This document shows, piece by piece, positions 12,551-61,678 of a stretch of 64,000 nucleotides of DNA; the stretch's first letter is position 1; each line of letters starts with the position of its first letter. Where the stretch lies: contig NZ_JACJSA010000022.1 in the NCBI RefSeq assembly GCF_014697545.1, positions 62,001-126,000 of the forward strand. The letters run 5' to 3'. The position numbers were made by a program, and so were the translations under genes. The notes beneath the pieces were generated by a model. The model was not told the DNA's origin. It saw nothing but the letters and a program-made list of their open reading frames with translations, and made no database searches. Origin of the DNA: Oscillatoria sp. FACHB-1407 (GTDB lineage Bacteria; Cyanobacteriota; Cyanobacteriia; Elainellales; Elainellaceae).

Positions 12551-12875
12551 AAAGCATTTTAGTTGTGCGTCAATCGTTAATGGTCAATGGTTAAGGGGCG
12601 ATCGTCAATGGTTAAGGGGCGATCGTCAATGGTCAGGGGCCAATAGTCAGTAGTCAAGGGTCAATCGCCAATGGTCAATCGGCATTAACATTAACTCGGC
12701 ATTAGGAGAATTCCCGTTTGCACAGGAACGATTGACCATTCACCATTGACCATTCACCATTGACCATTCACCATTGACCATCAACCATCAACCCTTCACT
12801 GTTGACTTTTCATGATCAACCATTGACTATTAACCATTGACAATTGACTACGTATCAGTCAAAAGCGGGGCAGCC
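12551..12875. repeat. Intergenic array of TCAATGGT/ACCATTGA units
   Basis: Between 12580 and 12850 the spacer is built of short units. The left half carries repeated GTCAATGGT and GTTAAGGGGCGATC, and the right half carries repeated ACCATTGACCATTC. The halves are inverted with respect to each other, so the transcript could form a long imperfect hairpin. The array lies between divergent genes. The unit length varies and there are no unique spacers, so it is not a CRISPR. Confidence 0.8.
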
Positions 12876-13811
12876 ATGCCATTTTTCAACAAAGATGAAC
12901 AACTTGAGACGTTGGGCGATCGCGTTCTGGAGGCAACGTGGGCAGCATTTCCCAGGTTGGCACAAAACCAGTTGGCATTGACCTGGCTGGTATATGACCC
13001 GCCCGTCATCGTGAACACAGGGGGTGCGCTGACTGCCGAGGAGTTTTGGCAACATCCCGTGCGGGGGTTTGCCTATCGGGGTGTAGAGTCGATCTATCCC
13101 GCCAGCGTCGTGAAGCTGTTTTATCTAGTTGCAGTTCATGAATGGCTCCAGCAGGGCATGATTCAACCCGGTGTAGAACTCGATCGCGCTACTCGCGACA
13201 TGATTGTAGACTCCAGCAACGATGCTACGAGTTTAGTGGTGGATGTGTTGACAGGCACAACCAGTGGTCCTGAGTTGCCCGTTGCTCCGTTTGAAACCTG
13301 GAAACATCAGCGCAATCTAGTCAACCGCTACTATCAATCCCTGGGGTGGTCAGAGCTAGAGAGCATTAACGTCAACCAAAAAACCTGGTGCGATGGAGCC
13401 TATGGGCGCGAACGTGCCTTTTTAGGAGAGTTGATGGATAACCGCAACAGGCTAACCACCAACGCAACAGCCCGATTACTGCACAGCATGGTCGGAGGGG
13501 TTGCCGTCTCAGCAGAGCGATCGCAAGCCATGATGTCGCTCTTACAACGCAGTCTCGATCCTGCCGATCTAGCGGCTGATCCCGAAAATCAAGTCACAGG
13601 GTTTTTAGGAGCCGGATTGCCCTTAACGGCTCGCCTCTGGTCAAAAGCCGGATTGATGAGTCGAGTTCGTCATGATGCTGCTTACATCGAACTTCCCGAC
13701 CAACGTCCTTACTTACTGGTCGTCTTTACCGAAGGCAAAGAACACAGCCAAAACGAAGCCATTTTGCCGTTTATTTCAGAGCAGATTGCAACAGCGATCG
13801 CTCAACTTTAA
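12876..13811 (+). CDS. Class A beta-lactamase-like serine hydrolase
   Basis: About 311 residues from the ATG at 12876. A TTG start 39 bases upstream would run into the repeat array and is unlikely. The penicillin-recognising fold is shown by S77-V-V-K80 in SIYPASVVKLFYL, by S113-S-N115 in VDSSNDATSL and by a third motif KAG in LWSKAGLMSRVRHD (KTG in classical enzymes). No signal peptide is visible, unlike secreted beta-lactamases. It may be a peptidase or esterase of the serine-hydrolase family acting in cell-wall turnover; the NlpC/P60 gene nearby fits that. Resistance to beta-lactams should not be assumed. Confidence 0.85.
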   Translation: MPFFNKDEQLETLGDRVLEATWAAFPRLAQNQLALTWLVYDPPVIVNTGGALTAEEFWQHPVRGFAYRGVESIYPASVVKLFYLVAVHEWLQQGMIQPGVELDRATRDMIVDSSNDATSLVVDVLTGTTSGPELPVAPFETWKHQRNLVNRYYQSLGWSELESINVNQKTWCDGAYGRERAFLGELMDNRNRLTTNATARLLHSMVGGVAVSAERSQAMMSLLQRSLDPADLAADPENQVTGFLGAGLPLTARLWSKAGLMSRVRHDAAYIELPDQRPYLLVVFTEGKEHSQNEAILPFISEQIATAIAQL

Positions 13812-13829
13812 GCAGGTTTGAGTGAGTTG

Positions 13830-13960
13830 TTATTGGTCAATGGTCAATCGTCAATGGTCAATGGTTAGGGGTCAGGGGTCAGTAGCCAGTAATCAGGGGT
13901 ATTATTCACCCACTTCCCACTCCCCATTCCCAGACGCGATAAATCGCGCCTCTCCCCATT
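13830..13960. repeat. Short repeat units downstream of the serine hydrolase
   Basis: GGTCAATGGTCAATCGTCAA units like those at 12551-12875, then C-rich TTCCCACTCCCCATTCCC units and the palindrome GCGATAAATCGCG. No gene is seen between 13812 and 14073. Confidence 0.7.
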
Positions 13961-14744: not shown

Positions 14745-15026
14745 CTGTGATTCACAGATAGGGTTTGGAAATAAAACCAGGGGGGTGTGGGGGCTGTGCC
14801 CCACCAGGAGTGGAACCCCTGCACCCCCAATTCCCACCCTTATTTAACGTCAGTTCGGTTTAAGAGTCCGGCGAATGAATTCGTGGCTACTAGAGCGAAG
14901 TCCACCGACGCGGACTCCGGAAAAGGCATGATTTGACAAACCGACGCAGGTCGGTTTTGCTCCGATAGCGGCGGTTTTAACCGCCGAAATCCTTGTCCCG
15001 AATTCACCTTATTTACAACAAGTTGT
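14745..15026 (+). repeat. Family A repeat copy 2, apparently split by another repeat
   Basis: The left part (14745-14846) carries the full family A left end, TTCACAGATAGGGTTTGG, and the GC-rich core. The family right end TTTACAACAAGTTGT is displaced to 15011-15026. The roughly 157 bases between are a different repeat, flanked by CACCCTTATTTA and CACCTTATTTA. Confidence 0.7.
14847..15004. repeat. Repeat family B, inserted in a family A copy
   Basis: Contains the inverted pair GAGTCCG/CGGACTC and the hairpin GGCGGTTTTAACCGCC followed by CCTTGTCCCGAATTCA. A related tail is present at 22846-22925, so this is a dispersed family. The near-direct repeats at its borders look like a target duplication. 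Confidence 0.6.
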
Positions 15027-15045
15027 ACTCAAGAAACCTCAACAA

Positions 15046-20592: not shown

Positions 20593-20653
20593 AGGGAGAA
20601 GGGGGGTTGGGGGCTTTTGCCTCCAGCCAGGGGTGGAACCCCGCCCTCCATTC
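20593..20653 (+). repeat. Family A repeat, partial copy 3
   Basis: Only the GC-rich core is present (GGGGGTTGGGGGC through GGGGTGGAACCCC). It ends nine bases before the likely ATG of the protease at 20662, so it occupies the place where a ribosome binding site and promoter would normally be. Confidence 0.65.
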
Positions 20654-20661
20654 TAATCTTG

Positions 20662-23169: not shown

Positions 23170-23223
23170 AAGGGGGTGTGGGGGCTACGCTCCCAGCCAG
23201 GGGTTCCTCCCCTGCACCCCGTC
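23170..23223 (+). repeat. Family A repeat, partial copy 4
   Basis: Core only: AAGGGGGTGTGGGGGCTACG through GGGGTTCCTCCCCTGCACCC. Both outer ends of the family are missing. Confidence 0.7.
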
Positions 23224-23280
23224 CTAACCAACCCCTCGGTTGCTATAGAAAAATTTGTTAATAAATCTGGATGTCGGGCT

Positions 23281-30637: not shown

Positions 30638-30746
30638 CTGCTTTCACAGATAGGGTTTGGCAATAAGGGGGATGTGGGAGCTGTGCCCCCAGCCAGGGGT
30701 TCCACCCCTGCACCCCAAATTGCCCCCTTATTTACGACGAGTTGTA
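30638..30746 (+). repeat. Family A repeat, complete copy 5
   Basis: Has both ends: CTGCTTTCACAGATAGGG on the left and TTTACGACGAGTTGT on the right, about 109 bp. AGAA is present just outside both ends (30634-30637 and 30746-30749), a possible short target duplication. It sits directly before the receiver fragment at 30747 and has probably displaced that gene's start. Confidence 0.75.
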
Positions 30747-52509: not shown

Positions 52510-52623
52510 CTGCTATTCACAGATAGGGTTCGGAAATAAAACAAGGGGGTGTGGGGGCTGCGCCCCAGCCAGGGGTTCCACCCCTGCACCCCAAATTCCC
52601 ACTCCTATTTATGACGAGTTGTA
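52510..52623 (+). repeat. Family A repeat, complete copy 6, with 7-bp direct repeats
   Basis: Full-length: CTGCTATTCACAGATAGGG on the left, the GC-rich triple-hairpin core, and TTTATGACGAGTTGTA on the right, 114 bp. CTAAGCA is found immediately outside both ends (52503-52509 and 52624-52630), as expected of a target-site duplication. Confidence 0.85.
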
Positions 52624-59868: not shown

Positions 59869-60050
59869 ATGAACCCTACGGCGCATTGGGAAAGGTATGA
59901 GCGGCAAAATCAAATTTCTAATCGATTTCTGTCCGATGAAATTATTCAACTGCGGACTCAAGCTCGAATTATTTCAACCATTTTTCTGGTCATCGACGCA
60001 TTTTTGCTCTATGTGCTGCTGGCACATTTGAGCAACACTCAGCACGATCA
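59869..60050 (+). pseudogene. Fragment resembling an FtsX-like ABC permease
   Basis: About 60 codons: NRFLSDEIIQLRTQARIIST then IFLVIDAFLLYVLLAHLSNT. The SNEI-x-QLRTQAR segment followed by a helix is the region before the third membrane helix of MacB/FtsX-type permeases. After TQHDQ the frame becomes nonsense. The rest of the gene is absent on both sides, so this is a rearrangement scrap. The family call is from memory of the motif and is moderate. Confidence 0.45.
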
Positions 60051-60129
60051 AAAAGTTTGTCGATCACGGTGCAAACGTTCATGGGCTTCGTCTAAACTGC
60101 CAGATGCAGCAACCAGTTTTGCCCCTGCG

Positions 60130-60513
60130 GGTACGTTGTTTCCGGCAGGGGCGAAGGGTAGTTTGTGCAGGCCTCCATATGAGCGATATTCCATCCTTGC
60201 CCGATGAGTTGTTGTGGGGAGAGCGAGTGTTGCAACTGATTGCGAATCTTACCCGTCGGGATGGTGAAGAGTTTCTCTCATTAGCTCCCCAAATCCCAAT
60301 CGAAACTCAGGTAGAGGCATTTTCTCTAACCGCTGCCAACAAAGCACTAGTGTTGCGAACACAAAGTTCTGCAATGTAGGGGGTTTGGGGGCTTCGCCCC
60401 AAGAAGGGGTGGAACCCCTTCACCCCTTTCAAAACTTATTTTTTGCTGTACTAGAAGCACCTCGGAGGGGCAAAATACAAGGTGCAGTTGCCTTGGTGAC
60501 TAATCAAAGCTGA
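60130..60513 (+). pseudogene. C-terminal remnant of a zinc-type alcohol dehydrogenase, split by a family A repeat
   Basis: GRRVVCAGLHMSDIPSLPDE, LLWGERVLQLIANLTRRDGE and TQVEAFSLTAANKAL match the last ~100 residues of zinc-dependent alcohol dehydrogenases. The frame is then broken by the repeat at 60351-60449. It resumes exactly in phase as EAPRRGKIQGAVALVTNQS with a TGA stop at 60511-60513. The N-terminal two thirds, with the zinc and most cofactor residues, is missing. The gene was therefore already a fragment, or became one, around the time the repeat arrived. Confidence 0.8.
60351..60449 (+). repeat. Family A repeat copy 7, inserted in the dehydrogenase remnant with ACTAG duplication
   Basis: 99 bp with the shared core (GTTTGGGGGCTTCGCCCC, AAGGGGTGGAACCCCTTC) but diverged ends (TGTTGCGAACACAAAGTT and ATTTTTTGCTGT). 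ACTAG is duplicated at 60346-60350 and 60450-60454. Removing the element and one ACTAG restores the dehydrogenase frame. Confidence 0.85.
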
Positions 60514-60964
60514 ATTCACTAGAGGCTCACAAGTTCCTCAAATTTGTCTCCTACTCTCAAGGCAGGAATTTGGAAGAGCAACGATGGAATCCAAAGAATT
60601 GTCCCGATTCATGCAATCTTTGCAAAATAATCTTGCCATTCCGACTTTTAGTCTCCAGCTTGCTGTACGGTAACCTGAGCAAACTACTCACCTTGTTGAT
60701 CATGATTCTTTAGCAGTATGAGTTAGTCACTTTACCTCAGATGAATCAAATGTTTGATTGGTTAGAACACTAGATTTTAGGTTAAGACAGCATAAAACCA
60801 CAGGAACAATTGAGAATTCCTATTTAGTACCTTGCCCATAATTGGCATACTGCTGAAAGTGTGAACCATATCAAGGGTTTCGCTAGGTGTAAAAGATCAT
60901 CAATGGGGAGTGAGGCGGAACGATAAACGAAATCATTGGAAATCTCTTTTAGGAAAGAGCAGTT
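60514..60964. other. Spacer with nothing recognised
   Basis: About 450 AT-rich bases between the dehydrogenase remnant and the membrane protein at 60965. No gene, repeat or RNA structure stood out. Confidence 0.5.
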
Positions 60965-61678
60965 ATGACAGATTCCAGTAAAGAAATTATTGTTGTCCAA
61001 ATTCCACCCTCTACCAAAAGCCTTGGATTCTGGTCCGCAATACTTGCTACAGTATTCAGCTTCATGTACGTTATAGGGCAAGTTGCTGAATGGTTAGGAC
61101 TCTTAGGATCTCAAGGAGGTCCTGCAAGCAGTAGTACGACACTAGGTCTGGTGATACTGCTAACACCGTCATTCTTTCTTGGTTCTTCATTTCTCCTTCT
61201 TGTTGTGAGCATCCACCAACTTGCGCTGCCTGACAGAAGAATCTGGAGTCACACAGCTGTTGCATTCGCCACAATTTATGCAACTCTGACCAGCCTTGTC
61301 TATTTTGTTCAGCTTACCCTCATTACGCCTCGTATTGCACACGGGCAGGTTGAAGGCATTGAGGTATTTTTATTTGTACCCTTTGATTCGTTTTTGTATG
61401 CTGTCGATATTCTCGGCTACAGCTTTATGAGTGTGGCTACCTTATTTGCTGCACAGGTGTTTATAGGCGGCGGACTGTATCAAGTCGTGCGATTATTCTT
61501 GCTCGCGAATGGATTGTTACTTCCCTTTATTGCGCTACAAATGTATTTTCACCCATTAATATGGGTCGCAGCACTTTGGGCAGTAACGTTTCCAGGATCA
61601 ACGTGGGCACTTGCCGTTCTGTTTCAACGTGCTGTAATTGTATCCACTGTTCCTAGCAACTCATCAGATGAAATGTAG
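60965..61678 (+). CDS. Six-helix membrane protein of unknown function
   Basis: 237 residues with about six membrane segments, for example GFWSAILATVFSFMYVIGQV, LVILLTPSFFLGSSFLLLVV, AVAFATIYATLTSLVYFVQL, SVATLFAAQVFIGGGLYQVV and LLLPFIALQMYFHPLIWVAA. The N-terminus (MTDSSKEIIVVQIPPSTKSL) is short and cytoplasmic. AGGAAAG lies upstream of the ATG. No family is recognised; the arrangement resembles small integral proteins of unknown function found next to stress genes. It stands alone. Confidence 0.75.
   Translation: MTDSSKEIIVVQIPPSTKSLGFWSAILATVFSFMYVIGQVAEWLGLLGSQGGPASSSTTLGLVILLTPSFFLGSSFLLLVVSIHQLALPDRRIWSHTAVAFATIYATLTSLVYFVQLTLITPRIAHGQVEGIEVFLFVPFDSFLYAVDILGYSFMSVATLFAAQVFIGGGLYQVVRLFLLANGLLLPFIALQMYFHPLIWVAALWAVTFPGSTWALAVLFQRAVIVSTVPSNSSDEM

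Follow-up and report, generated by a model that had tools for sequence, protein, structure and literature searches.

How did a GC-rich repeat come to stand among the codons of an alcohol dehydrogenase gene? The question arises at 60346-60454 of the window, by which we mean the whole stretch of 64,000 nucleotides of Oscillatoria sp. FACHB-1407 that was analysed, where ACTAG is found at both 60346-60350 and 60450-60454 with 99 bp in between. An earlier note on this DNA had described the intervening repeat as a mobile unit that duplicated ACTAG on entering the gene. Our answer, to which we assign a probability of about 0.92, is that the repeat is a non-autonomous DNA transposon (MITE), designated family A, and that it was inserted here at CTAG.

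The insertion and its host gene

Features of the dehydrogenase locus, in window coordinates:

60116-60349, + strand: zinc alcohol dehydrogenase remnant before the insertion, about codons 234-311 of 329
60347-60350: left copy of the target CTAG (CTAG in 30 of 30 left flanks)
60351-60450, + strand: MITE of family A, TGTTGC...GCTGTA, 100 bp in this copy (consensus 101 bp)
60351-60374, + strand: left terminal inverted repeat, imperfect, matching the right end at 15 of 24 positions
60379-60426: GC-rich double-hairpin core, common to other repeat families
60427-60450, - strand: right terminal inverted repeat, reverse complement TACAGCAAAAAATAAGTTTTGAAA
60451-60454: right copy of the target CTAG (29 of 30 right flanks read CTAG and one TTAG)
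60454-60513, + strand: dehydrogenase remnant after the insertion, with its stop TGA at 60511-60513

That the repeat breaks into dehydrogenase codons is confirmed, since deletion of 60351-60454 joins the two remnants in frame as ...SLTAANKAL-EAPRRGKIQGAVALVTNQS*. The insertion point falls at the codons CTA-GAA in the last third of the gene. Because only codons 234-328 of a 329-codon homologue are retained, the host is a gene remnant. The NCBIfam profile TIGR02822 matches residues 2-78 of 82 at profile positions 252-329 of 329, which is the last position, with a score far below the curated cut-off, a value set for whole proteins; no match to the remnant was found among solved structures or in Pfam. 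The insertion into the gene thus stands as the earlier note had it, while the unit runs over 60351-60450 rather than 60351-60449 and the gene is not intact. Of 39 relatives, not counting the own genome, 4 have an uninterrupted dehydrogenase tail at 63-71% identity, in open frames of 333-348 codons, and this supplies the empty site in relatives that the note had called for. Family A may have landed in the dehydrogenase gene itself or in a piece of such a gene that was already in decay. Another family A copy is found in a second decayed gene, one of LysR type (locus L011).

The unit consists of the core and arms of about 28 and 24 bp. It carries no gene and, when read in the frame of the host, contains stop codons. 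Its inverted ends (TGTTGCAAACAC/TACAGCAAAACG-like) agree at 15 of 24 positions, a level that 3 of 10000 shuffles reach. Folded as single-stranded DNA, the unit lies 4.6 s.d. below shuffles and the left end is predicted to form a small hairpin. GTAG stands before the core. Searches against Rfam at the gathering threshold gave no match in the window.

Copies, flanks, and empty sites

The genome (8.13 Mb in 66 contigs) holds family A in at least 40 places, at 93-100% identity and covering the unit. Among 36 copies, 93-101 bp long, the median pairwise identity is 0.95. In the 30 own-genome loci collected by BLAST (L001-L030), CTAG stands on the left in 30/30 and on the right in 29/30, with TTAG in L026, and a profile built from 23 own copies recovered 11 full copies (10 in contigs C1-C3 and 1 in the window) with CTAG on the left in 11/11 and on the right in 10/11, the remaining one having TTAG. 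Aligning the copies, as the earlier note had proposed, yields fixed ends, with both flanks reading CTAG in 29 of 30 loci. The reading of ACTAG as the duplicated target did not hold up, although ACTAG is indeed present at both edges. The base before CTAG is A on the left in 22 of 28 loci with enough flank and on the right in 25/25 copies of a stricter set, which was drawn by regular expressions and omits among others L009, L021, L026, L027, L028, L030, and L050. Because the A varies on the left and is constant on the right, the target is CTAG and the right-hand A is the last base of the element. Mismatched flanks do occur (TTAG/CTAG, CTAA/CTAG, CCAC/CTAG, CTAG/CTAC, CTAG/CTAA, and CTAG/TTAG), and no matched pair other than CTAG was seen among the copies inspected. 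Since nearly all targets are CTAG, the identity of the flanks is by itself no proof of a 4-bp duplication; the flanks fit as well with a TA target (2 bp) and a CTAG preference, or with a CTAG borne by the ends. A 4-bp duplication at a YTAR/CTAG target would be expected of an IS5-family derivative, and a TA duplication of an IS630/Tc1-mariner derivative.

Copies are also found elsewhere among cyanobacteria. Seven other genomes match nearly the whole unit, most with CTAG on both sides, and an exact-pattern search, which may leave out records near the window's own genome, gave nine stretches of A-type elements in Leptolyngbya sp. FACHB-8 and two Leptolyngbyaceae MAGs. At 1507-1712 of locus L067 (genome G052), two A elements stand in tandem with the middle CTAG in common, as though the target duplicated by one A had served as the insertion site of the other.

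Empty sites within the same genome are provided by a second repeat, family C, which carries a single ACTAG. Thirty C loci were fetched, of which 29 matched the pattern used. By our count, CTAG is present at the site in 23 of 29 uninterrupted copies. The copy in the window contributes one such feature:

14890-14893: empty CTAG site of repeat family C, the site that holds the MITE of family A in six other C copies

Family A sits exactly at this CTAG in those six copies, with CTAG on both sides in five and CTAG plus TTAG in one. All six inserts have one orientation and four share a base variant, so that some of them may go back to a single insertion that was copied along with C. Family C itself occupies 14846-15030 of the window, with at least 40 copies scored of 230 first-look candidates in the genome. 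It is perhaps another MITE, with TTAACGTCAGTTCGG-like ends as judged by eye. The conclusion that the repeat moved into its place is supported by the empty sites in the genome and by the uninterrupted gene in 4 of 39 relatives. Rather than being an ancestral part of its sites or lacking flanking repeats in most copies, the repeat has empty counterparts and a near-universal CTAG.

The same-looking empty site, the palindromes, and the hairpin at the left end would also suit a REP or an element of IS200/IS605 type that a Y1 (RAYT-like) transposase moves in single-stranded form, with the left CTAG as the target and the right CTAG as part of the element. We consider this improbable. Whereas IS200/IS605-type elements need no inverted-repeat ends, the ends of family A form an imperfect inverted repeat, and the decay of flanks hits the left and right CTAG alike. 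The sister family B, which has the target CTWAG, also argues against it. Its 35 copies comprise 13 flanked by CTAAG/CTAAG, 12 by CTTAG/CTTAG, and 10 by other pairs that differ, some of them in the central base, and no CTAAG/CTTAG pair is among them; since the central base is matched in 25 copies, the duplication in B is a true one. The GTAG before the core recalls the GTAG-tagged REPs of cyanobacteria and so counts for the single-stranded route. REPs are palindromes of 20-40 bp, often found with IS200/IS605-type transposases (PMC3733652), and family A shares with the GTAG-tagged ones the palindromes and GTAG but differs from them in its inverted ends and the CTAG on both sides.

Search for an autonomous transposase

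For a MITE inserted at CTAG, a transposase made elsewhere would recognise the ends of family A and direct its insertion into CTAG, so that a copy of CTAG borders each side. By analogy with MITEPsy1 of Pseudomonas syringae pv. phaseolicola, this enzyme might be of the DDE type, acting in trans and IS5-like. MITEPsy1 was seen to transpose, is related to ISPsy2 (entered as 'IS5?' in a table), and has a duplication of 4 nt, CTAG or YTAA (PMC3189936). Compared by description, MITEPsy1 resembles family A in its 100 nt, lack of a gene, imperfect inverted ends, and CTAG (PMC3189936). There, however, a partner insertion sequence is proposed and six genomic copies are given (PMC3189936), whereas family A has at least 40 copies and no partner was found. 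A core common to other families further sets A apart from MITEPsy1. Within the cyanobacteria, Nezha, cited in PMC10969869 and PMC3733652, is reportedly a MITE of the filamentous Anabaena variabilis. Small dispersed repeats are also known from cyanobacteria (Elhai et al. 2008) and are reportedly shorter than A.

Transposase families in the genome comprise PF13546 and PF13751 with one place each and PF01609 and PF13358 with three each. At none of these eight loci (seven distinct, since L094 and L097 overlap) is CTAG followed by an A-like end at 12 of 20 positions or better; an earlier scan had given one weak right-end match in L096, with 6 mismatches of 20. The three PF01609 loci were accordingly rejected as an IS5-family partner of A for want of A-like ends, and the PF13358 loci L101-L103, of IS630 type, have no A-like ends either. 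The PF01609 element at 547-2231 of L097 has CTAG on both sides and other inverted ends, AGCACCGGTCA by eye. Judged by these ends, it is a CTAG-flanked insertion sequence of the same genome and not the partner of A.

The ends themselves were searched for as a motif. This gave 6 matches in the own genome, 22 matches in 6 of 9 relatives, and, among 388 genomes of the class, matches in 2 (its own and one other); there were 0 matches in IMG/VR viral contigs and none in plasmids. Those inspected proved to be MITEs, fragments, or hybrids, apart from a left end standing alone next to another gene (L062) and a double left end of 35 bp (L099). The last of these, at 1501-1535 (genome G317), is a palindrome of two family A left ends with almost nothing between them. 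All 22 matches in relatives are short A elements or fragments within the 125 bp shown, with no autonomous partner, and for L253 and L265, which have no partner end nearby, the 3-kb locus held none either. Inverted ends bounded by CTAG and alike at 12 of 16 positions, a threshold that would miss A itself with its ends alike at 9 of 16, were found as two pairs in C1-C3 and the window, both without A ends. One pair of A-like ends 300-4000 bp apart, at 60347-60773 (427 bp) with a right end matching at 12 of 20, was taken for chance. The transposase with matching ends that the earlier note had suggested looking for was thus absent from the families and genomes searched, at end lengths that would overlook a partner with shorter ends in common. 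MITEs can outlive their partner transposase, and that of A may have been lost from the genome or be present but not recognised.

A core common to several families

The GC-rich core extends well beyond family A. In the 2.03 Mb of C1-C3 plus the window, a profile of the core finds 122 places, of which 7 belong to the window and 110 have E up to 0.001; a Markov-shuffled copy has 0. With both arms assigned, 81 cores divide into B 35, E 21, D 11, A 11, F 2, and G 1. Another 13 are without recognised arms, and 28 have mixed or half-recognised pairs, some of the mixed labels being loose matches rather than true hybrids. Cores in the window, other than that in the dehydrogenase locus, are:

2046-2099, + strand: core in a hybrid, family D left arm and family B right arm
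14781-14833, + strand: core with a family B left arm, the right side running into repeat C
20601-20655, + strand: core with an unclassified left arm and a D-like right arm
23171-23225, + strand: core in family E, left flank TG and right flank TA in this copy
30668-30716, + strand: core in a family B element with unmatched flanks GTAAG / GAAGT
52544-52592, + strand: core in a family B element with CTAAG on both sides

Consensus sequences were derived from 34 copies of B, 11 of D, 20 of E, and 11 of A. In these, the 49-bp core is identical in B, D, and E and 86% identical to these in A, and the similarity of left and right arms across A, B, D, and E stays within the shuffle range. Nearly all arms of A (left 11/11, right 12/12), B (34/37, 38/41), and D (13/13, 14/14) have a core within 90 bp, as do 19/29 left and 21/28 right arms of E; several arms without a nearby core keep pieces of one. 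In loci of relatives, inspected by eye, the core is found in A arms and in D-, F-, and G-like arms, and also with TATAGC(A/G)-type ends (L076, L077, and L091) and two further kinds (L080/L092 and L067). The GC-rich part is not itself the mobile unit; what moves is the core together with its arms. The earlier note was right to place the GC-rich repeat in a mobile unit, yet the core, which also occurs in unrelated arms, is not that unit. It behaves as a shared module.

Flanking repeats differ between the families as well. TA stands on both sides in 10/11 copies of D, 11/20 of E, and 4/4 of G, and could be part of the ends since it is invariant. D and E both start with TAGC. The genome also has an IS630-type gene with TATAGC ends (931-2050 of L103), whose transposase is in two overlapping frames of 156 and 190 aa and is possibly frameshifted or decayed. 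Four 93-bp elements with IS630-type ends like those of L103 (C1:792650, C2:454820, C2:599360, and C3:388656) have no core and differ only in how the three loop bases of a perfect hairpin are oriented, TTT in three and AAA in one. A comparable variation is found in copies of A, where loop 2 reads GGA in 13, TTC in 9, TCC in 4, GAA in 2, and AAA in 1 (29 of 36 fit the pattern) and loop 1 reads TTC in 26 and GAA in 1. These variants are most simply read as extruded hairpin loops that were inverted.

Conservation of the fold was assessed on 80 cores with a hand-written structure. Hairpin 2 has 528 paired cells, above the shuffle maximum of 519, while hairpin 1 (484 vs 488) and the outer stem (424 vs 429) are not above letter shuffles and RNAalifold gave no sensible consensus for the core. 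Because only hairpin 2 exceeds the letter shuffles, we do not claim selection for the fold. Inside hairpin 2, some 21-25 bp like CGTTCGGCTGAGC..TCACGCCGAAG are found at C1:6943, C1:377473, and C3:47836 (tiles L143, L161, and L218). This seems to be a mobile repeat within a mobile repeat, and it presumably resembles the small dispersed repeats of Nostoc.

How the core came to have such different arms can be read in two ways. One old MITE may have diverged at its ends while gene conversion kept the core the same. This descent from a common ancestor would agree with the nearness of a core (90 bp or less) to almost every arm of A, B, and D, with the TAGC start of both D and E, and with the hybrids, which show recombination between cores. 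By eye, clear hybrids joined at the core are D-left/B-right at window position 2046 and B-left/D-right at C1:313094, and others are E-left/B-right at C1:456791, A-right/D-right at C1:657760, and B-right/A-right at L063. Gradual divergence, however, must change an end and its target together, which disfavours common descent: the arms are alike only within the shuffle range while B, D, and E agree in all 49 bp of the consensus core, and the flanking repeats are CTAG, CTWAG, and TA. The core would most likely have spread between families by recombination between cores. It is conceivable that the core is a selfish module that swaps arms by such recombination among MITEs with different transposases and targets (CTAG, CTWAG, and TA), and that in this way it survives the loss of any one transposase.

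Genomic placement

With the element removed, an open frame of at least 150 codons encloses 2/32 A sites, vs 400/600 random CTAG sites. Elements with a core (C1-C3, E up to 0.001) lie in called ORFs in 2/103 cases vs 78% of random positions. Genes being simple longest-ORF calls, gaps being 150 bases or more, and expectations being counted by bases, the 97 core elements borne in gaps divide into 27 between convergent genes (14.4 expected), 27 between divergent genes (27.5), and 43 between tandem genes (55.1), an approximately twofold enrichment between convergent genes.

This enrichment bears on the reading of the GC-rich palindrome as a transcription terminator or gene-end motif of the dehydrogenase locus, as does the folding of the core as RNA, which is better than that of most shuffles (z -2.8, with 2/200 as good). 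The reading is nonetheless highly improbable. At this locus, the element splits dehydrogenase codons instead of standing after the stop codon, no terminator-like site, with a GC hairpin and a T run after it, came up at the core in a consensus scan over 60000-61000, and the fixed ends and CTAG flanks are marks of a transposon; among the core elements, divergent gaps hold 27 of 97, the chance level. The view that the repeat is not merely a terminator or gene-end motif, which the note had already advanced, is borne out by the CTAG flanks, the fixed ends, and the split codons. Once inserted, the element may still act as a mild terminator. Our best guess is that the strong hairpin makes an intergenic insertion harmless, or mildly useful at transcript ends. 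Elsewhere in the window, arrays of short TCAATGGTCAATGG-type repeats, both direct and inverted, at 12562-12806 and 13822-13902 flank an ORF at 12837-13811.

Implications

Family A is a new MITE family. The insertion in the dehydrogenase remnant would, taken alone, be an ordinary and clean case of a MITE with an empty site; the unusual part is the core common to different ends and targets. In the usual view, MITEs are shrunken copies of one insertion sequence with the ends kept and the inside decayed, whereas here the inside is common and nearly invariant and the ends and flanking repeats differ. The Correia/NEMIS elements of Neisseria, with two forms of ~107 and ~155 bp set apart by 50 bp of internal sequence (PMC2229807), have common ends and a differing inside, the reverse of the cyanobacterial families with their common inside and differing ends. 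A limited literature search, which is no proof of absence, turned up nothing recognisable as MITE families with one core but different ends. If this arrangement of core and ends holds, MITEs of cyanobacteria would be mosaics of a common hairpin and borrowed ends. It would then become testable by what means a sequence without a gene outlives its transposases, and whether insertions are tolerated on account of a strong hairpin.
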